Shown here one piece after another: positions 52,013 to 64,000 of a stretch of DNA of 64,000 bases (position 1 is the stretch's first letter; each line of letters starts with the position of its first letter). Source of the DNA: Streptomyces sp. B21-083 (GTDB lineage Bacteria > Actinomycetota > Actinomycetes > Streptomycetales > Streptomycetaceae); assembly GCF_036898825.1 (NCBI RefSeq), contig NZ_JARUND010000001.1:4154001-4218000 (forward strand). Reading direction: 5' to 3'. The notes under the pieces were generated by a model. The model was not told the DNA's origin, ran no database searches, and saw nothing but the letters and a program-made list of their open reading frames with translations. The position numbers and the translations under genes are program-made.

Positions 52013-52465
52013 GGTGCCCCTGGGGGCGCGCAGGGAGCAGCAGAGTGCCCCGATTGCCGGAGCCTTCACTTCGGGACCATCCCCGCACGTGCGGGGAGCA
52101 GGCATCCAGTTCGATCCAGCCCGTGCCCGGACCGGGACCATCCCCGCGTGCGGGGAGCAGTGACATCGGCGGTCCAGCGGTAGGTGCGGGTCAGGACCAT
52201 CCCCGCGCGTGCGGGGAGCAGTCTGGACCGGTCTCGACGGCACAGCCGCATTCGGGACCATCCCCGCGCGTGCGGGGAGCAGCCAATCGCCGGACTACGT
52301 GGCGGGGAGCACGGGGGACCATCCCCGCGCGTGCGGGGAGCAGACGGAATCCGGGGGCAGCATGGTGGGCGCGTTGGGACCATCCCCGCCGGTGCGGGGA
52401 GCAGCAGGAGGCGGAAGTCCTCCCGCCCGTGCGCCCGGGACCATCCCCGCCCGCGCAGGGAGGAT
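52013..52465 (-). CRISPR. CRISPR array, type I-E-like repeats, no cas genes in window
   Basis: Six clear repeats start at 52074, 52135, 52194, 52255, 52316 and 52377, with degenerate ones at 52013 and 52438. In the likely transcribed (minus) direction the 28-29-bp repeat begins CTGCTCCCCGCACGCGC and ends GGATGGTCC(C); the CCCCGC/GCGGGG stem is typical of type I-E. All seven spacers are 33 nt (32 if the repeat is 29 nt). The repeat at 52135 lacks two bases. Both ends being degenerate suggests an old array. The leader should lie right of 52465; I see no clear leader and no cas gene up to either edge. Confidence 0.93.
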
Positions 52466-52754
52466 CTCAACCGCTCCCTGATCGAGGACGCCAGTCGCCT
52501 GCTCCCCCACTCGCGGGGTGTTCTCAACCGTGCGCTTCGGACGCCCGATGGTCTCCGCATGGCCAGCCCGTGAGCTCTAACCCGTCGCGCTGCTGCCCAC
52601 TCTCACAGTGCTGCGCAGGGACTGGAAGTCTCCGAGGAGATCCGGTGCTTGGTACGGGCACGTGCCGGAAGCCTGCGAGCGGACGGAGGACCTCGCATAC
52701 AGCGGCGGCTCGTCCCCGGCATGAGGAGCAGGCCGCCCCAGAAACAGGTGCTGG
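52466..52754. other. Gap between CRISPR array and acetyltransferase gene
   Basis: No intact gene is seen. A short plus-strand frame ending near 52760 (LEVSEEIRCLVRARAG) may be a remnant but I do not recognise it. The CRISPR leader, if any remains, should be here. Confidence 0.35.
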
Positions 52755-53294
52755 TCAGCAGGTAGTCCGGATCATCACCACCAGGTTCGGCGAAGCTACT
52801 GACGGCTGGCTCTGACCGATGTCCTCGTAGCCCCACGACCGGTAGAGCGCGTGGACCTTCCCGTCTCCCGCTGCCCGGTTGACCATGAGCGTCACGTACG
52901 GCTCGTCGCGCGTGGCGAGGAAGGCGTCGTGGAGGCGTCGCGCGGTACCCGTGCCCCGCCACTGGGTGCGTACGCCGATCTCCTTCAGGGCCACGGCCGG
53001 ACGCTCTGTGTATTCGTGCGCCGGCGCCGGGACCGTGCGCTGCCAGTACCGGTTACCGTGCTCGATCGTGTTGCCGTAGACGTATCCGACCGGATGCCCG
53101 TTTACGTACGCGAGCACAGCCCCGAAACCCGACTCGACGCCATGCCGGTCCAGGCGCTCCCCGAACGCGGTGACCGCGTAGTTCGGCAGGTGGAGCAGCG
53201 GGGCCCGTACGTCGGCGTACACATCGAGGAGGTCACCGCGGACGGTGTAGAGGGTGGTGAACGTGCGCAACTCGATGCCGGGCGCCGGGGTCAC
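52755..53294 (-). CDS. GNAT-family acetyltransferase (copy 2)
   Basis: A 179-residue acetyltransferase. GTG at 53294 overlaps the stop codon of the preceding regulator (GTGA), the same coupling as in copy 1. The acetyl-CoA loop lies in IGVRTQWRGTGTARRLHD (R-G-T-G-x-A), followed by VTLMVNRAAGDGKVHALYRS and WGYEDIGQSQP. FGAVLAYVNGHPVGYVYG is the central sheet. Substrate unknown. Compared with copy 1 the loop R-G-T-G-T-A is the more canonical one. Confidence 0.85.
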   Translation of the reverse strand: MTPAPGIELRTFTTLYTVRGDLLDVYADVRAPLLHLPNYAVTAFGERLDRHGVESGFGAVLAYVNGHPVGYVYGNTIEHGNRYWQRTVPAPAHEYTERPAVALKEIGVRTQWRGTGTARRLHDAFLATRDEPYVTLMVNRAAGDGKVHALYRSWGYEDIGQSQPSVASPNLVVMIRTTC

Positions 53295-54571
53295 GCGGCC
53301 ATCCTCCAGGCGGCGGTGTGCTCGGTCCAGGTGTGCACGGTGGTGCCGTCCGGTCCGGTGGCTCGTAGCGCGGCCCCGAACTCCTGCAGCATGCGCGCTA
53401 CCCGGACGTGTTGCGTAGCAACGTCGACGGGGACTTTCATCGCCGTAGCCGTGGCGGCATCGCCGTCGCCCTGGGCAAGTTGGGCGTGTGCGAGTCGGGT
53501 GGTCGTGATGGCCCGGGAGCGGACCATGTGGGGCCGGAGGGCAGACAGACAACGGTGGGCATGGAACTCGGCGGTCGGGTAGTCGCCGAGCGTCAGATAC
53601 GCCGACAGGGCCAAGGAGTCCAGCTCGGCCTGATCGTAGAAGGCGAGCATCCACACCGGCCGATAGTCGGCAGGGTCGGCGCGCAGCATGGCGTCCTGTG
53701 CCTGCTCGAACGCCCGCCGGGTGCCGCTGCGGTCCTGCGCCGCGCCATGGATGGCCGCCTGTCGGGCCAGGCCGAGGGACGCGAACAAGGGGTCGCGGCG
53801 GGTGAGGTGCAGGTTGCGGGCAACGTCGTTCGCGGCAAGCGCGTCGGCAGGACGCCTCATGTGGCGGTACATGGTCCCCGCGTGACTCCAGATGCGGAAC
53901 TTGATCGCCTGGTCGCCGGACATCTCGGCGAGGGTCTGTGCTTCTCGCATGTGCGTCTTCGCGTCCTCGTAGCGGCGGCCGTCGATCGCCGCCCACATCG
54001 CCGAGGAGCGGAACGAAGCCGCGCAGGCATACAGGTTGCCGCGTACACGCTGGCTGGCACTGCCGGCAATCTGTAGGTTCAGCGCCTCGTCGGCGAGCGC
54101 GGCGGCCCGCTGCTCGATGCCGAGTTGGCCGCCGTGGCGGTGGTCACTGGCGATGATCTCCGCGAAGCGTTGCTGCAGGCGGTCGACGTCGCCCATGCCG
54201 ATACGGCGCGGCGATCCACTGCCGGGCACGGCTGCTGCTGCGGCAGTGGCGGCGATGCCGCCGACGAGGGTACGGCGCTTCATGTCGAGGTCCTCCTGCG
54301 ATGCGGCTGGGGTGGACCGGGCCTGGCCCCGTGGCACGAACCCTAAAGCCGTGGCGGGTAGGCCGCTGACGTCCTCAAGGGCCCTGCGGGTAGCCGATTT
54401 CGGCCACCGTACCCGCCCCGCTTTCCAGGAGCGGACGGATGATCCGTCCAGCCCGCCGGACCGTCCGGTCAGTCGCCCCACGGCCGTGTTGACCGCATCG
54501 GCAAGGGAGTTGGAGCTGTGACCGTGCTCGTTCATCCACGCCTCAAGAACGGTGTTGCGCGTGATGCCCAT
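53291..54571 (-). CDS. Streptomyces regulator with HTH-like head and TPR-like body (copy 2)
   Basis: A 426-residue homologue of the protein at 27323. The head (about 1-85) has GGLDGSSVRSWKAGRVRWP, which looks like an HTH turn. A KRRTLVGGIAATAAAAAV segment follows (about 99-115). The body is helical with SSAMWAAIDGRRYEDAKTH, LTRRDPLFASLGLAR and FYDQAELDSLALSAYL, the same landmarks as copy 1. It is coupled to its acetyltransferase by a 4-bp overlap. Its promoter faces the RsbW-like ATPase and the radical SAM operon, so it is the likely local regulator. No bldA codon was noticed here. Confidence 0.78.
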   Translation of the reverse strand: MGITRNTVLEAWMNEHGHSSNSLADAVNTAVGRLTGRSGGLDGSSVRSWKAGRVRWPKSATRRALEDVSGLPATALGFVPRGQARSTPAASQEDLDMKRRTLVGGIAATAAAAAVPGSGSPRRIGMGDVDRLQQRFAEIIASDHRHGGQLGIEQRAAALADEALNLQIAGSASQRVRGNLYACAASFRSSAMWAAIDGRRYEDAKTHMREAQTLAEMSGDQAIKFRIWSHAGTMYRHMRRPADALAANDVARNLHLTRRDPLFASLGLARQAAIHGAAQDRSGTRRAFEQAQDAMLRADPADYRPVWMLAFYDQAELDSLALSAYLTLGDYPTAEFHAHRCLSALRPHMVRSRAITTTRLAHAQLAQGDGDAATATAMKVPVDVATQHVRVARMLQEFGAALRATGPDGTTVHTWTEHTAAWRMAA

Positions 54572-54803: not shown

Positions 54804-55250
54804 ATGACGAGTCTCAGTACGCCAGTTCAGGCTGCCCCGACCGGGCCTCCCGCCTACAGCCAGACCTTCCCGTGCGAGCCGACGACGGCCTCGATAGCCC
54901 GCAAGCTCGTCCGCGACGCCCTCGCCGTATGGCACCTGAACGACTTCGCCGACCCCGCAGCGCTGATCATCTCGGAACTGGTCACGAATGCCATCAGACA
55001 TACCCCGGGCCAGTCGATCCGTCTGCTCGTCCGACGGCCGAGTACGGCGCTGGTCCGCGTCGGGGTGGTGGACCGGGCGCCCACGCGTCTGCCGGTGTTC
55101 AACCCTGTCGCTGCCGACGACGAGTCCGGCCGTGGCCTGCTCCTGATCGACGAACTCGCGGACCGCTGGGGCTATGACCTGCGGGGCTCCGGTCGTCGCC
55201 CGTGGGGCAAAGAGGTGTGGGCCGAGCTCCTCACCGAGGCCGACCAGTGA
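54804..55250 (+). CDS. RsbW-like histidine-kinase-fold ATP-binding protein
   Basis: A 148-residue HATPase_c protein. The N box is in LIISELVTNAIRHTPG and the G1/G2 boxes in VVDRAPTRLPVFNP and DESGRGLLLIDELADRWGYD. This is the standard size of the many Streptomyces anti-sigma-type regulators. Partner unknown; neither a sigma factor nor an anti-sigma antagonist lies nearby. It sits between regulator copy 2 and the radical SAM gene, 137 bp upstream of the latter, and could belong to the same unit. Confidence 0.9.
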   Translation: MTSLSTPVQAAPTGPPAYSQTFPCEPTTASIARKLVRDALAVWHLNDFADPAALIISELVTNAIRHTPGQSIRLLVRRPSTALVRVGVVDRAPTRLPVFNPVAADDESGRGLLLIDELADRWGYDLRGSGRRPWGKEVWAELLTEADQ

Positions 55251-55387: not shown

Positions 55388-56407
55388 ATGACCATTCCGC
55401 TTTCGAACACCAACGACGTGGACTGGACCGCGCTGCGGAACTTCGCCATGCTGCGCGGCCAACTCAGGGTCTCCCTGACCCCGAAATGCAACGAGAAGTG
55501 CTGGTTCTGCCACAACGAGGGTGACGTCCCGCCGCCCTTCACACACCTGCACCGCGATGCGCTGCCCCGCGACCGCGAGATGACCGCTGAGGACTTCCTG
55601 ACCGTCCTGGGCGCCCTGATGAACGCGGGGCTCAAGCGGGTGTACTTCACAGGCGGGGAACCGCTTATGTCGCCCTTGTCCCGGCCGATCCTCACCCAAC
55701 TCCCCGAACGCGGACCGGACACGAGCTACACCCTGATCACGAACGGAACGCTGGTTCGCACTCATCAGAAATGGCTCTCTACGACCGCCCTGGACAAGGT
55801 GAAGGTTTCCCTCCACTACTTCTCGGACGCGTCGCTCAAGGCCATCGCCAATACCCGCATCGGCATCGCGACCATCCTCGACGGGATCGAGGCGGCCCGC
55901 GAGCTGTTCGAGCGAGTGGAACTGAACACGCTCGTACAGCGGGAGAACGAACACGAGCTGCACGACATCCTGGCCTTCGCTCTCGACCGTCGTATGCCTG
56001 TCCAGTTCATCGAGCTGGTGGACACCGACTTCAACACCAAGCGAAAGGACTCCGCGATCGGCGCCCAAGGCATCATCGATCATCTGCGCACCCTGACCAG
56101 GGACGAAGAGGTCGAGGTCTCCGGCGTCGGGCAGGGACGGCGGATCTTCCGCATCGACGGCATCGAGATCGACGTCATCCATCGCGAACTCGGGCGCCAC
56201 CACGTCGGCCAGTGCGGCGCTTGCCCTGTCAGGTCCAAGTGCGTGGAGGGGTTCTGGTCCCTTCGCGTCGACCACGCCGGCGGAGTCCAACCCTGTCTGT
56301 TGCGGGACGACCTCCGCATGGACATCCGGCCTCTGCTGGCTGATCCGAAGCAGCTTCCCGCGGCCGTCGCACGGCACGTCTCGGCCTTCACCGAGGGCAC
56401 CCTGTGA
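55388..56407 (+). CDS. MoaA-like radical SAM enzyme
   Basis: A 339-residue radical SAM protein, first gene of a tight operon. The [4Fe-4S]/SAM motif is SLTPKCNEKCWFCHNEG (CX3CX2C, about residues 35-45). VYFTGGEPLMSP gives the GGE motif and LITNGTLV follows. The C-terminus has extra cysteines (GQCGACPVRSKCVEGF, then GGVQPCLLRDD), so a second cluster as in MoaA is likely, but the substrate is not GTP for certain. AAGGAG lies before the ATG at 55388. The stop overlaps the kinase start (GTGA). Confidence 0.88.
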   Translation: MTIPLSNTNDVDWTALRNFAMLRGQLRVSLTPKCNEKCWFCHNEGDVPPPFTHLHRDALPRDREMTAEDFLTVLGALMNAGLKRVYFTGGEPLMSPLSRPILTQLPERGPDTSYTLITNGTLVRTHQKWLSTTALDKVKVSLHYFSDASLKAIANTRIGIATILDGIEAARELFERVELNTLVQRENEHELHDILAFALDRRMPVQFIELVDTDFNTKRKDSAIGAQGIIDHLRTLTRDEEVEVSGVGQGRRIFRIDGIEIDVIHRELGRHHVGQCGACPVRSKCVEGFWSLRVDHAGGVQPCLLRDDLRMDIRPLLADPKQLPAAVARHVSAFTEGTL

Positions 56408-57039
56408 TCCCCCTGCCCGCCCCGTACACGCCCGGGGTTGCGGAACGCCAGGGGCCGTTCGTGGTCCTGGAAGGCGTCTCCGGAGTCGGGAAGTCGACGC
56501 TTGCCCGAAGGTTGGCCAAGCGGCTCGGCGCCGCAACGATCCATACCCTCACCGATCCGCACACCAACTGGTCCGACTCGGTCAACCGGGAGCTTCGGCC
56601 GCTTCCGCAAATTGCCTTCTACCTCTCCGGTCTCCTGCACGTCTCCGACCTCGTACGGCAGGCCCTCAGCGTGGGACCAGTTGTCGCGGACCGCTACGTC
56701 GTATCGGTCATGGCCTGCCATGCCGCCGTCAACCACGCCGGCCTGGGCCAGGTGCAAGAAATGATCGCCCCGTTCCTGCCGTACCTCGTGGCGCCTGACG
56801 CCACCTTCTGCCTGGTCAGCTCCGGCAGCTCGCTGAAAGAGCGGATGGGCACCAAGACGGACGTGAAGCAGGACGACACCGACCTGTTCGACATCCCCGG
56901 CCGTCTTGCCAGGCTCCAGCAAAACTTCCATGCCGTCATCGACGAGGACCCCACGGCAGTCATGCTCCCCACCGATGGTCGCAGCCCGGACGACCTGGCG
57001 GATGCCATCGTCAAGTACCTGGAGGACAGGCGTGCTTAA
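56404..57039 (+). CDS. dTMP-kinase-like P-loop kinase
   Basis: A 211-residue P-loop protein of thymidylate-kinase type: FVVLEGVSGVGKSTLARRLA (Walker A), VVADRYVVSVMACHAAV (the DRY motif that binds the nucleotide), and FCLVSSGSSLKERM where dTMP kinases have the lid arginines. The lid differs from housekeeping dTMP kinases, so another substrate is likely. The GTG start overlaps the radical SAM stop codon by 4 bp; its end overlaps the next gene by 8 bp. This argues for a shared pathway. Confidence 0.85.
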   Translation: MIPLPAPYTPGVAERQGPFVVLEGVSGVGKSTLARRLAKRLGAATIHTLTDPHTNWSDSVNRELRPLPQIAFYLSGLLHVSDLVRQALSVGPVVADRYVVSVMACHAAVNHAGLGQVQEMIAPFLPYLVAPDATFCLVSSGSSLKERMGTKTDVKQDDTDLFDIPGRLARLQQNFHAVIDEDPTAVMLPTDGRSPDDLADAIVKYLEDRRA

Positions 57040-57535
57040 TCCGATCGACAGCGACGCCGTCATCCGTGACGGCCGCATCGCAGGGGTGTTCCCGGGCGAG
57101 ATCCACGAGGGCGTGGCTTGGTGGGTCGCCGCCTGCTTCGTCCTGATCAGCCAGGCCCGGCAGATGGCCGTGGCCCACGACGAGCACCCCGTCACGGCCG
57201 AGTTCCACCGACGGTTCTGCCGGGGGGCTGTCAATGCCGAGCACTGGGGTTGCCACGTCTCCAGTCTTGGTACGGCCGACGAAGCCCAGCTCCTGCACGC
57301 CATGAAGGAACTAGGAGGCGTCCCCGGAGCCCTGCTGACCACGACCGACAGCGGCGGCGGCGGCGGGCAGATGATCACGATTCGCCTCTACGACGCGGAC
57401 GGCCGGCCGGTCACCGAAGACACGGGCCTGGCAAGGCTACGAAAGGTGATCGCCTCCGACCGGATTCCCATCCCGGTGAACGACCAGGCCAAGGGGCGCA
57501 TCACCGACCGCCGCGGCCTGGTGGTGACACTGTGA
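57032..57535 (+). CDS. Single-domain phosphohexomutase-like protein
   Basis: A 167-residue protein similar to domain I of phosphomannomutase/phosphoglucomutase: RIAGVFPGEIHEGVAWWVA, then MAVAHDEHPVTAEFHRRF and LLTTTDSGGGGGQMITIRLY, which stands at the phosphoserine loop (TASHNP in true mutases). Domains II-IV are absent and the catalytic Ser-His is replaced by TTTDSG, so it cannot be a normal mutase. GTG at 57032 has GGAGG ahead and overlaps the kinase by 8 bp; the stop overlaps the next gene (GTGA). The similarity is judged by eye. Confidence 0.6.
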   Translation: MLNPIDSDAVIRDGRIAGVFPGEIHEGVAWWVAACFVLISQARQMAVAHDEHPVTAEFHRRFCRGAVNAEHWGCHVSSLGTADEAQLLHAMKELGGVPGALLTTTDSGGGGGQMITIRLYDADGRPVTEDTGLARLRKVIASDRIPIPVNDQAKGRITDRRGLVVTL

Positions 57536-58316
57536 CCGACACGGCCGAGGTCATCCAAAGCCAGACCAGCATCCTCTTCGTCACCCTGGACTCCCTGCGC
57601 CACGATGTCGCCCGAGCCGCCTTGCACGCCGGTCAGACGCCGCGCCTGGCCAGCGTCCTGCCGGGCGGGGTGTGGGAGGAACGCCGTACTCCCGGTACCT
57701 TCACCCTCCCCGCGCACATCGCCTTCTTCTCCGGCTTCCTCCCCAAGCTTCCGCAGCCCGTACAGCCGCCCCGGCTGTGGGAGTGCCGCCCGCCCGCGTT
57801 CAAGACCGTTGATCCGCGCACGTTCGTCTTCGACGCGCCGAGCCTTCTTGCCGGGCTCGCCCAGCACGGATACCGGACGGTGTGCATCGGCGGCGTGACC
57901 TACTTCTCACGGGAGACACCACTCGGGTCGGTGCTGCCCGACATGTTCGACGAGGACCACTGGCGTCCCGAGTTCTGCTCCCCGGAGCCCGATTCCACGC
58001 GGCACCAGGTAGACCACGCCCTGACCATCGCCGAACAGTCCACCGACCGGCCGCTGTCAACGTCTCCGCCACTCATGTCCCCCACGGCCACTACATCGGC
58101 GACAGTGCCGACTCCTGGCGATCCCAAGCTGCCGCGCTCGCGTACGCGGACGCACACCTCGGCCGCCTGATCGACGGGCTCACCGGCAAGAAACGGTGGC
58201 TGATCATCATGTGCGCCGACCACGGTGACGCATTCGGCGAGGACGGCTACCACGGCCGTGGCATTGCTCACCCGACCGTGCTGAACGTGCCGTTCGCGGC
58301 CTGGCTGTCGGAGTAG
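57532..58316 (+). pseudogene. Sulfatase-like metalloenzyme, frameshifted
   Basis: Two frames together encode an alkaline-phosphatase-superfamily protein of about 260 residues. The first part has ILFVTLDSLRHDVARAAL (metal Asp) and GTFTLPAHIAFFSGFLP (nucleophile Thr). The second, in another frame from about 58060, has VNVSATHVPHGHYIGD and WLIIMCADHGDAFGEDGYHG (metal DHG and His). The shift is near 58062, at CCGCTGTCAACGTCTCC. It overlaps the previous gene by 4 bp. Either the gene is recently broken or there is a sequencing error; codon use is good on both sides. Confidence 0.75.
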
Positions 58317-58335
58317 ACGGCTACGCTCCCGGGCC

Positions 58336-59037
58336 ATGACCGACTCACCCCAAGGGGACGCTCTGCGCGACGCCTCCGTAATCGTGGCCCGAGACGCGGA
58401 CGGCACGGTCGCCGTCCTGGCCGCCGTGTTCCCGCAGCACGGCGGCGAGTACGTGTTCCTGCCCGGGGGACGCCGAGAGCCTGGCGAAACACCGGAAGAA
58501 TGCGCGCGCCGCGAGCTGCTCGAGGAAGCCGGCGTCACCGCCCGGACCTGGCGGCCCCTCGGCTCGTACGCCATCACGCTGGACTCTCCTGCCCGCATCC
58601 ACCTTTTCCTGGCCGAAGGCCTCACCTGCGGCCCGCAACAACTCACGCCCAGCGAAGAGCACTTCAAACTCGCATGGTGGCCAATGCCTGACGCGATCCA
58701 GGCCGCCACCGAAGGACGCTTCCTACTTCAGGGGGGCCCACTGGCACTGCTGCTGGCCCAGCAGGTCACAACAGCCCGACAAAAGCGGAACCCTGTTGTC
58801 GCATCAACGTCCTCGACCGGCTCTCCGACAGGCAACTCGACCGCCCCGTCACCAACGGCCTACGAGCGGTCGCCCTCGGGATCGAGTCCGGCAGTGACCG
58901 TGTCCTCAGGGAGATGGACAAGCGGATCCGACGCCGACATGACCGAACGCGTCGCGCGCCGAATCGCCGATGCCATCCCGCCTTTGCCGCTAGCGTCGAT
59001 CGCCACACCCGACGAACCGAACCCCCAGGAACCGTGA
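58336..59037 (+). CDS. NUDIX hydrolase with tail from a decayed gene
   Basis: The first 150 residues are a NUDIX hydrolase: VFLPGGRREPGETPEECARR and ELLEEAGV give the full Nudix box, and HFKLAWWPMPDAIQ follows. The natural end is probably near LLLAQQVTTARQK (about 58790). The remaining 80 residues are Ser/Pro/Thr-rich and read through a remnant of a radical SAM gene in another frame, so they are accidental. The stop at 59037 overlaps the next NUDIX gene (GTGA). It should hydrolyse a nucleoside diphosphate derivative. Confidence 0.8.
   Translation: MTDSPQGDALRDASVIVARDADGTVAVLAAVFPQHGGEYVFLPGGRREPGETPEECARRELLEEAGVTARTWRPLGSYAITLDSPARIHLFLAEGLTCGPQQLTPSEEHFKLAWWPMPDAIQAATEGRFLLQGGPLALLLAQQVTTARQKRNPVVASTSSTGSPTGNSTAPSPTAYERSPSGSSPAVTVSSGRWTSGSDADMTERVARRIADAIPPLPLASIATPDEPNPQEP
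58788..58975 (+). pseudogene. Remnant of a second radical SAM gene
   Basis: Inside the tail of the NUDIX gene, a different frame reads INVLDRLSDRQLDRPVTNGL and LRAVALGIESGSDRVLREMD, the hallmark middle of B12-type or MiaB-like radical SAM proteins (GIESGSDRVL). After a shift near 58925 the NUDIX frame reads DADMTERVARRIADA, the next expected stretch. Neither the CxxxCxxC motif nor the C-terminus remains. It is a deleted gene core. Confidence 0.7.
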
Positions 59038-59477
59038 GCGCGCAACCCGCACAGCCCGTCATCGACACCCATGTCATCCTCCGCGACGGCGACAAGATCC
59101 TCATGTCGCAGCGCGGCGGCCCTTACGGCCGCTATCGGTGGCACATGCCTTCGGGCAAGCTCGACAAGGGCGAGCCGTTGAGTTCCGGCGCCGCTCGGGA
59201 GCTGTATGAGGAGACAGACGTCACCGTCGACCCCGCCCACCTTCGCCTCGTGCACGTCGTGCATCACCGGCAGAACGAGGAGGTCGAGCGGATCGGCTTC
59301 TTCTTCGAGGCCACCGAGTGGGAGGGAACGCCCCACAACCAGGAACCCGAGAAGTGCCTCGCGCTCGCCTGGTTCAGCGTGCACGATCTGCCCGAGGACA
59401 TCATCGAGTACCCAGAAGCAGGCCTGCTCGGCTATCTGAACGGCATCGACCGCCTCAACGAGCATGGCTGGCAGTAA
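59034..59477 (+). CDS. NUDIX hydrolase
   Basis: A 147-residue NUDIX enzyme. The box is GKLDKGEPLSSGAAREL followed by YEETDVTV (final Gly is Asp). Before it stands DTHVILRDGDKILMSQRGG, and after it VVHHRQNEEVERIGFFFEA. The pattern is near 8-oxo-dGTP/CTP-type NUDIX proteins. GTG at 59034 overlaps the previous stop. It is the last intact member of the operon. Confidence 0.88.
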   Translation: MSAQPAQPVIDTHVILRDGDKILMSQRGGPYGRYRWHMPSGKLDKGEPLSSGAARELYEETDVTVDPAHLRLVHVVHHRQNEEVERIGFFFEATEWEGTPHNQEPEKCLALAWFSVHDLPEDIIEYPEAGLLGYLNGIDRLNEHGWQ

Positions 59478-59486
59478 CTCTCGTCG

Positions 59487-59642
59487 CCGTTCGCGACCTG
59501 GCCGTCAGCGTAGGCACCTACGCCGACGGCCATGACCGACGCACCCCACGGGGACGCTGTGCGCGACGCGTCCGTAATCGTGGCCCGGGACGCGAACGGC
59601 ATGGTCGCCGTCCTGACCGCTCCCAGCAGTCGGGAGGGCTGA
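59487..59642 (+). pseudogene. Duplicated fragment: sulfatase end plus NUDIX head
   Basis: The stretch from 59487 to about 59620 copies 58290 to about 58425: CCGTTCGCG...CTGGC, the spacer, and the first 30 codons of the NUDIX gene (MTDAPHGDAVRDASVIVARD). It ends at a stop 36 codons in. It is a non-functional duplication, at about 80-85% identity by eye. Confidence 0.8.
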
Positions 59643-62912: not shown

Positions 62913-64000
62913 TCAGTCCAGCACAGGCAGCAGCTCCGGCAGATGGCCGTCCGACAAGGCCGCCGCCTGCTGCCGTTCCTCCGTGACCTCCCCGTAGAGG
63001 GTGGTCCGGGGTTTTGCGGGCCGCCCGGCCGCCTCCGCCACCGCGATCAGGTCCTTGACCGACTTGTAGGAGCCGTACGACGACCCGGCCATGCGCGAGA
63101 TCGTCTCCTCCATCAGCGTGCCGCCCAGGTCGTTCGCGCCCGAGCGGAGCATTTCCGCCGCGCCCTCCGTGCCCAACTTCACCCAGCTGGTCTGGATGTT
63201 GGGGATGTGGGTGTGCAGGAGGAGGCGGGCCATGGCGATGACCGCACGGTTGTCGCGCATCGTCGGGCCGGGGCGGGCGATGCCCGCGAGGTAGACCGGT
63301 GCGTTGGTGTGGATGAAGGGGAGGGTGACGAACTCCGTGAAGCCGCCCGTCTGTTGCTGGATGCGGGCCAGGGTCCGGAAGTGGCCGAGCCAGTGGCGCG
63401 GTTGGTCGACGTGGCCGTACATCATCGTGGAGGAGGAGCGGATGCCCAGCTCGTGGGCGGTCGTCACGACCTCGATCCAGGTGGCCGTGGGCAGCTTGCC
63501 CTTGGTGAGGACCCAGCGGACCTCGTCGTCGAGGATCTCCGCCGCCGTGCCGGGGATCGTGTCGAGGCCGGCTTCCTTCGCGGCCGTCAGCCACTCGCGG
63601 ATCGACATCCCGGTGCGGGTCGCGCCGTTCACCACTTCCATGGGCGAGAAGGCGTGTACGTGCATGCCGGGTACCCGTTCCTTCACCGCCTTCGCGATGT
63701 CGAAGTACGCCGTCCCCGGCAGGTCGGGGTGGATGCCGCCCTGCATACAGACCTCAACTGCCCCGAGATCCCAGGCCTGTTGGGCGCGGTCCGCCACCTG
63801 GTCCAGGGACAGCGTGTACGCGTCGGCGTCGGTCCTGCGCTGCGCGAAGGCGCAGAAACGGCAGCCGGTGTAGCAGACGTTGGTGAAGTTGATGTTCCGG
63901 GTGACGATGTAGGTGACATCGTCGCCGACCGCCGACTTCCGTACGTCGTCGGCGACTTGGCACAGGGCGTCCAGGGCGGGGCCGTCCGCGTGGAACAGCG
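62913..64000 (-). CDS. fbiC: FbiC, C-terminal (CofH) half, cut by window edge
   Basis: About 362 codons of the C-terminal half of the F0 synthase, which makes the deazaflavin core of F420 from a tyrosine and a pyrimidine precursor. The second radical SAM motif [16 protein letters not shown] (CX3CX2C) and [10 protein letters not shown] are visible, followed by [11 protein letters not shown] and [14 protein letters not shown], as in CofH. The gene's 5' part lies beyond the right edge, so a separate cofH cannot be excluded, but Streptomyces normally has the fused form. The product serves enzymes such as the PPOX protein at 5574. Confidence 0.9.

Follow-up and report, generated by a model that had tools for sequence, protein, structure and literature searches.

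The 4'-thiothymidine cluster of Photorhabdus asymbiotica, thmA-C, encodes a radical S-adenosylmethionine (SAM) enzyme, a nucleoside kinase and a triphosphatase. Excerpts of the report on this system (PMC12691670) state that thmA-C suffices for 4'-thiothymidine in E. coli BL21(DE3), that the triphosphatase confers resistance, that the nucleoside kinase gene thmB is a distant abmG homologue, and that the flanking genes vary between species. Here we describe a five-gene set from Streptomyces sp. B21-083, which lies within a 64,000-nucleotide stretch termed the window (C1:4154001-4218000 of a 10.5-Mb genome). The set spans ~3.4 kb and encodes a MoaA-like radical SAM enzyme, a thymidylate-kinase-like P-loop kinase, a stand-alone phosphohexomutase domain (hereafter the hexomutase domain), an STM4013-family hydrolase and a NUDIX hydrolase. 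It is a real and mobile cassette, seen here only in Streptomycetaceae, and we tentatively propose that it serves to make a modified nucleotide-type small molecule.

Judged by analogy and from the same excerpts, thmA-C is the best precedent for this cassette. Both are compact, combine a radical SAM enzyme with a kinase and a phosphate-cleaving enzyme, and have changing flanks. However, the cassette kinase is thymidylate-kinase-like, its phosphate-cleaving enzyme is a NUDIX protein, and the cassette further includes a hexomutase domain and an STM4013-type hydrolase; the two systems are likened by description, not by sequence.

In the STM4011-STM4014 system, too, a hydrolase of the STM4013 family accompanies radical SAM chemistry, but STM4011-, STM4012- and STM4014-type genes are missing from the conserved block of the cassette. 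A first-pass annotation of the window had noted only a partial resemblance, and a set of this kind indeed lies elsewhere in the same genome: an intact STM4013 paralogue at C1:535132 is surrounded (C1:534-538 kb, locus L057) by genes that, named from sequence, we take to be of the STM4014, STM4012 and STM4011 types. Prokaryotic viperin likewise joins a radical SAM enzyme to a nucleotide-type kinase, but the cassette enzyme scores far below the viperin cut-off and carries an extra C-terminal cysteine site. As the first-pass annotation anticipated, the literature searched yielded no paper describing the five-gene set and no named pathway that contains it; the set is not mentioned in the examined passages of PMC13118837 and PMC7159879.

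Conserved order and mobility of the cassette

The window, together with 26 loci found through the radical SAM protein, 16 through the hexomutase domain and one through the hydrolase, gave 44 loci, or 40 non-redundant loci after four duplicates were dropped. In 36 of these 40 Streptomycetaceae loci, tblastn matches to all five genes lie on one strand in the order radical SAM enzyme, kinase, hexomutase domain, STM4013-family hydrolase, NUDIX hydrolase. This count reflects linkage and not frequency, since the loci were gathered with the set's own genes, and a match may represent a damaged copy, as in one of the 36 (L061), where only the last 40 residues of the radical SAM protein are matched. The remaining four loci comprise two with radical SAM, kinase and NUDIX genes, one without a NUDIX match (L038) and one with radical SAM and NUDIX genes; three reduced forms of the cassette retain this last pair of genes. 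The same order recurs in loci of seven genera of the one family. When genes were called in the window and 26 other loci, using a codon-usage caller that misses some genes found by tblastn, one common block emerged from these 27 loci, and it consists of the same five genes.

The junctions are similarly conserved. The radical SAM and kinase genes overlap in all 38 measurable loci, the kinase and hexomutase genes overlap in 33 of 36, and the hexomutase and hydrolase genes overlap by exactly 4 nucleotides in 35 of 37 (a value of -794 in L045, which derives from a read-through frame, was left out of this count). The gap between the hydrolase and NUDIX genes measures 11-24 nucleotides in 33 of 36 loci. 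The five-gene arrangement is not a product of chance.

The radical SAM protein has matches at E <= 1e-40 in two plasmid records, both typed mobilizable. A 172-kb linear plasmid of Streptomyces albidoflavus NBC 01791 carries the five genes in order and without internal stops, annotated as radical SAM protein, thymidylate kinase, hypothetical protein, STM4013/SEN3800 family hydrolase and NUDIX hydrolase. Matches to all five genes, again in order, are found on a 1.7-Mb plasmid of Kitasatospora sp. NBC_01519. No record in the phage collection matches the cassette. Trees of the radical SAM protein and of the hydrolase place loci L110-L114 differently (support for the hydrolase grouping 87/96, unstarred), which suggests that single genes have been exchanged.

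Sequence identities to L021, the nearest relative of the window copy, are also uneven. For L110-L114 (genus g231) they are 80-85% for the hydrolase, 59-62% for the radical SAM protein and 38-41% for the kinase. The cassette of Wenjunlia tyrosinilytica (L022) is a mosaic, with a radical SAM protein 89% identical to that of L021, a kinase at 63% and a hexomutase domain at 66%.

The first-pass annotation had looked to conserved gene order across Actinobacteria; the order holds, but that range is wider than the sampling bears out. The radical SAM protein was found in 12 of 199 genus genomes searched, the window genome included, and 12 of the 15 radical SAM loci from a scan of named genomes belong to Streptomyces. 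Its profile matched two of 346 sampled phylum genomes (six candidates scored per genome), both of the window's genus. The hexomutase profile matched 42 places in 41 of 297 sampled family genomes (12 candidates per genome), which by our own division comprise 18 stand-alone domains in 18 genomes of seven genera (E of 1e-32 or better, frames of 165-379 amino acids) and 24 places that look like ordinary phosphomannomutases (E near 1e-16 to 1e-18, frames of 469-763 amino acids). In the class, seven of 296 sampled genomes gave matches (again 12 candidates per genome), with the stand-alone form in two, both of the same genus as the window. The best 120 of 185 database matches of the domain come from Streptomycetaceae wherever an organism is named.

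Organization and damage of the window copy

The cassette genes of the window and their neighbors are arranged as follows.

55388..56407, + strand: MoaA-like radical SAM enzyme (core gene 1; 339 amino acids)
56404..57039, + strand: thymidylate-kinase-like P-loop kinase (core gene 2; 211 amino acids; 4-nucleotide overlap with gene 1)
57032..57535, + strand: phosphohexomutase domain I, standing alone and lacking the catalytic serine loop (core gene 3; 167 amino acids; 8-nucleotide overlap with gene 2)
57532..58170, + strand: STM4013-family hydrolase, first part, cut short by a premature stop (core gene 4, damaged in the window; NF038075 220.7 bits, profile positions 3-166)
58055..58056, + strand: site of a 10-nucleotide deletion (DNA alignment with 14 relatives)
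58056..58316, + strand: STM4013-family hydrolase, out-of-frame last third with a CADHGD motif (NF038075 102.4 bits, profile positions 176-259)
58336..58776, + strand: NUDIX hydrolase 1, conserved 147 codons (core gene 5; PF00293 61.1 bits; matched in 39 of 40 loci)
58777..59037, + strand: extension of the NUDIX 1 frame by read-through past the lost stop codon (DNA alignment with L021), with a radical SAM-like remnant in another frame
59034..59477, + strand: NUDIX hydrolase 2, outside the conserved cassette (147 amino acids; PF00293 65.6 bits)
54804..55250, + strand: HATPase (anti-sigma-like) gene directly upstream, a recurrent neighbor but not core (PF13581 38.5 bits)
53291..54571, - strand: NsdA-family TPR regulator, divergent, a recurrent neighbor but not core (NF053720 268.9 bits, cut-off 75)

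The GTGA junctions at 56404 and 57532, each a 4-nucleotide overlap, and the 8-nucleotide overlap at 57032 are exact, as first described. Conversely, the coupled genes are not all intact as the first-pass annotation had them. The hydrolase gene lacks 10 nucleotides at 58055/58056 relative to all 14 relatives compared, and is thereby split into two frames; its two pieces each fall below the NF038075 cut-off of 250 bits, which the hydrolase of L021 exceeds (347.7 bits). NUDIX 1 has lost its stop codon, with CGA at 58777-58779 in place of the TGA of L021, and its frame continues to 59037. The GTGA at 59034, once counted as a further junction, is therefore not a conserved operon junction.

NUDIX 2 is matched at E <= 1e-6 in one of 43 other loci searched, that of L021, and for this reason we reject it as a member of the pathway; the notion that the genes form a set holds for the five core genes but does not extend to this one. 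Between NUDIX 1 and NUDIX 2 lies the radical SAM-like remnant, a weak match to TIGR04479 (E 5e-4) that is broken in L021 as well. Behind NUDIX 2, a partial copy of the NUDIX 1 start (59533-59640) is present, and L021 has a 29-residue match at a like place. NUDIX 2 and the remnant are thus enclosed by two copies of one sequence.

Ratios of nonsynonymous to synonymous substitution (dN/dS) relative to L021 are 0.14 for the radical SAM gene, 0.30 for the kinase, 0.33 for the hexomutase domain, 0.18 for the first part of the hydrolase, 0.23 for NUDIX 1 and 0.12 for NUDIX 2; the value for the last third of the hydrolase (0.68) comes from three differences, too few to judge. Relative to another locus, L029, the range is 0.12-0.50, with the kinase highest. 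By these values the damage looks recent. It is an even question, in our estimate, whether this one copy is an operon in decay that no longer has any function in the strain, a reading compatible with any of those considered below for the cassette as a whole. The hydrolase deletion and the lost NUDIX 1 stop point that way, as do the two-piece genes of six other loci: the hydrolase of L022 (also shortened, at a different place), the hexomutase domain of L028 and the kinase of L061 are each split into two frames, and the radical SAM genes of L035, L102 and L104 lie in two pieces in different frames. Nonetheless, the other window genes are still open, with dN/dS of 0.12-0.33 relative to L021, the intact STM4013 paralogue is available in the same genome, and the apparent damage, read from the assembly sequence alone, may be an error of sequencing or assembly.

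Genes clustering with the upstream HATPase gene occur in nine of 27 loci, in some of them several kb from the cassette, and those clustering with the NsdA-family regulator occur in eight. Among 123 flank proteins from 25 loci, DUF5753 appears nine times (0.75 expected from its density in the window's own genome) and DUF6879 six times (0.10 expected); with a single genome as the source of the expectation and loci that are not independent of one another, the small probabilities are no more than indicative. At the window end, a gene at 62913-63797 and beyond, presumably an FO synthase gene, clusters with one near the L021 and L029 cassettes, and the three cassettes may therefore occupy one chromosomal site. 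About 3 kb upstream of the cassette (52070-52468) are seven repeats of the clustered regularly interspaced short palindromic repeat (CRISPR) type (GGGACCATCCCCGC..GCGGGGAGCAG), spaced at 59-61 nucleotides. The Cas profile PF09344, the one cas family searched, has no match in the genome, and the array may thus be an orphan. The exact repeat pattern recurs, in 26 copies, in one of 117 loci (L031; many of the loci are short), and in L116 (plasmid NZ_CP109086.1) the cassette is flanked by a cas3 gene on one side and by genes annotated lasso peptide biosynthesis B2 on the other. These cases are too few to claim a link between CRISPR arrays and the cassette.

Properties of the encoded proteins

The protein classes named in the first-pass annotation were recovered in profile and fold comparisons (PF04055, PF02223, NF038075 and NUDIX matches, and domain I by fold). 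The radical SAM enzyme (PF04055, 78.7 bits) folds like MoaA, the GTP 3',8-cyclase, but misses the MoaA NCBIfam equivalog cut-off (128.1 versus 284.05 bits), and a true MoaA is encoded elsewhere in the window genome. Its N-terminal CxxxCxxC (C34, C38 and C41) is present in 23 of 23 sequences, its own included. At the positions of MoaA Lys163 and Arg192 (S. aureus numbering), which we take to be triphosphate-binding residues, the family has E178 (22 of 23) and Q206 (23 of 23). The MoaA C terminus carries CxxCx13C with an Arg pair, whereas the cassette enzyme has four conserved cysteines in the pattern CxxCx5Cx17C and a VEGFWxLR segment aligned with the Arg pair region. It lacks the Gly-Gly tail of MoaA, ending instead in TEGTL or TEGIL.

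The kinase exceeds the PF02223 cut-off (39.1 versus 27 bits) and falls below that of the dTMP kinase equivalog TIGR00041 (51.7 versus 83.25 bits). Hallmarks of dTMP kinases are the P-loop and a DR(Y/H) motif; the P-loop and a DRY motif are kept across 24 aligned kinases taken from the gene calls, two of them beginning late through start choice.

The hexomutase domain scores below the PF02878 cut-off (14.3 versus 22.5 bits), although domain I is clear by fold. It differs from domain I of phosphoglucomutase/phosphomannomutase in standing alone and in lacking the phosphoserine loop. The (T/S)ASHNP loop of phosphohexomutases is lost: SHNP occurs in none of the 120 members listed of 185 found, consistent with the original description of a domain I without catalytic residues, and the six full-length mutases used for comparison were chosen by this motif and hence are not an independent control. 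Most of the stand-alone proteins listed are 163-170 amino acids long. In complete enzymes, domains II-IV bind metal and sugar.

The hydrolase belongs to the STM4013 family (NF038075) of the alkaline-phosphatase superfamily. A PG[TS]FTLP[AT]H nucleophile region is present in 36 of the 37 loci with the gene and was not found in one. Sulfatases that use formylglycine have the nucleophile motif C/S-x-P-x-R, which this region does not match; 'sulfatase' is therefore only a fold name here. The STM4013 family is matched in 96 of 199 sampled genus genomes, with a main group of scores at 414-432 bits, to which the paralogue at C1:535132 belongs, and 13 places at 333-357 bits (partial matches left aside). 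Nine of the 13 lie in the cassette, and one (G122) adjoins a cassette whose radical SAM gene is reduced. The other three (two in G090, one in G149) have a sugar-1-phosphate nucleotidyltransferase-like gene as neighbor. This second context is that of loci L058, L059 and L060 (family search of the nucleotidyltransferase-like gene in L058 only); L058 and L059 additionally have a methyltransferase gene, which in L058 matches TIGR04188 (ATP-grasp peptide maturase system) at 324.9 bits, below its cut-off of 380. No functional paper on STM4013-family hydrolases turned up in the literature searched.

Proposed function and alternatives

The phosphorylated small-molecule theme put forward in the first-pass annotation fits the enzyme classes. 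By analogy, the logic shared with thmA-C would favor a nucleotide-type product, followed by a sugar-phosphate product. We accordingly rank first, at somewhat less than an even chance, the reading that the five genes are a mobile cassette whose product is a modified small molecule of the nucleotide type. The thymidylate-kinase-like enzyme would phosphorylate a monophosphate substrate, and the MoaA-like enzyme might make a carbon-centered change on the phosphorylated compound, with ring closure, epimerization, dehydration or an atom swap as candidates. The STM4013-type hydrolase, without a formylglycine motif, could remove or move a phosphoester. The NUDIX enzyme may cleave a diphosphate or triphosphate form for quality control or self-protection, and the stand-alone hexomutase domain could act as a subunit that has no catalytic role but assists in assembly or binding. 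The hydrolase step is probably missing from this strain, or else performed by the intact STM4013 paralogue encoded at another site of the genome.

Several observations weigh against a nucleotide-type product. The likeness to ThmA and ThmB is one of set composition. The triphosphate-binding residues of MoaA are absent, and the sequence therefore does not imply a nucleotide substrate. In fold comparisons the peptide enzymes SuiB and PqqE place at least as high as viperins, with DesII and GDGT-MAS close behind. The kinase dN/dS of 0.50 relative to L029 indicates weak constraint. No flank gene family is common to more than nine of 27 loci, and the set thus has no scaffold-making gene or transporter. 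Finally, the related hydrolase paired with a sugar-1-phosphate nucleotidyltransferase-like gene (three loci in two genomes) also fits a sugar phosphate. More doubtful than the nucleotide-type product itself is the fuller picture of a cassette moving horizontally throughout the family and making an undescribed nucleotide-derived metabolite, in which the four cysteines of the MoaA-like enzyme would fully ligate a second iron-sulfur cluster and a lone, dead phosphohexomutase domain would have become a standing subunit of the pathway.

An alternative, which we consider unlikely, is that the cassette acts on a sugar phosphate or on a nucleotide sugar. Here the hexomutase-like domain would bind a sugar phosphate, the NUDIX enzyme would cleave a nucleotide sugar, and the STM4013-type hydrolase would act on a sugar phosphoester. 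However, the lone domain I lacks both the catalytic serine loop and domains II-IV, and no sugar-modifying family stands out in the 25 of 109 flank families shown, one glycoside hydrolase family accounting for two of the 123 flank proteins.

It is quite improbable that the cassette serves in defense, supplying a chain-terminating nucleotide against phages as does prokaryotic viperin with its kinase. The patchy, mobile distribution would suit such a role, and PADLOC matches the radical SAM enzyme to pVip (47 bits), the kinase to PDC-M51B (56 bits, a candidate family) and VakA (30 bits), and both NUDIX proteins to PDC-S07 (28 and 36 bits). These matches, at 20-56 bits, are none of them decisive; the viperin NCBIfam score is 46.4 bits against a cut-off of 180, compared with 128 for MoaA. 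Moreover, no defense family stands out in the same 25 flank families (PADLOC was not run on the flanks), and the phage collection gave no match.

A peptide-modifying cassette for ribosomally synthesized and post-translationally modified peptides is very improbable even though the four-cysteine site resembles the C-terminal cysteine sites of twitch/SPASM maturases, as no conserved small open reading frame lies within 700 nucleotides of the cassette (where only HATPase gene ends and the frames antisense to them recur, in four loci, a distant or very short precursor being beyond the reach of this search) and, to our knowledge, a kinase with a NUDIX enzyme is not usual in such clusters.

With five known enzyme classes in fixed order and no known product, the cassette is a tractable target, and uninterrupted copies such as that on the Streptomyces albidoflavus plasmid make expression of the whole cassette possible. 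It could give a first function both to an STM4013-family hydrolase and to a hexomutase domain without the catalytic serine.

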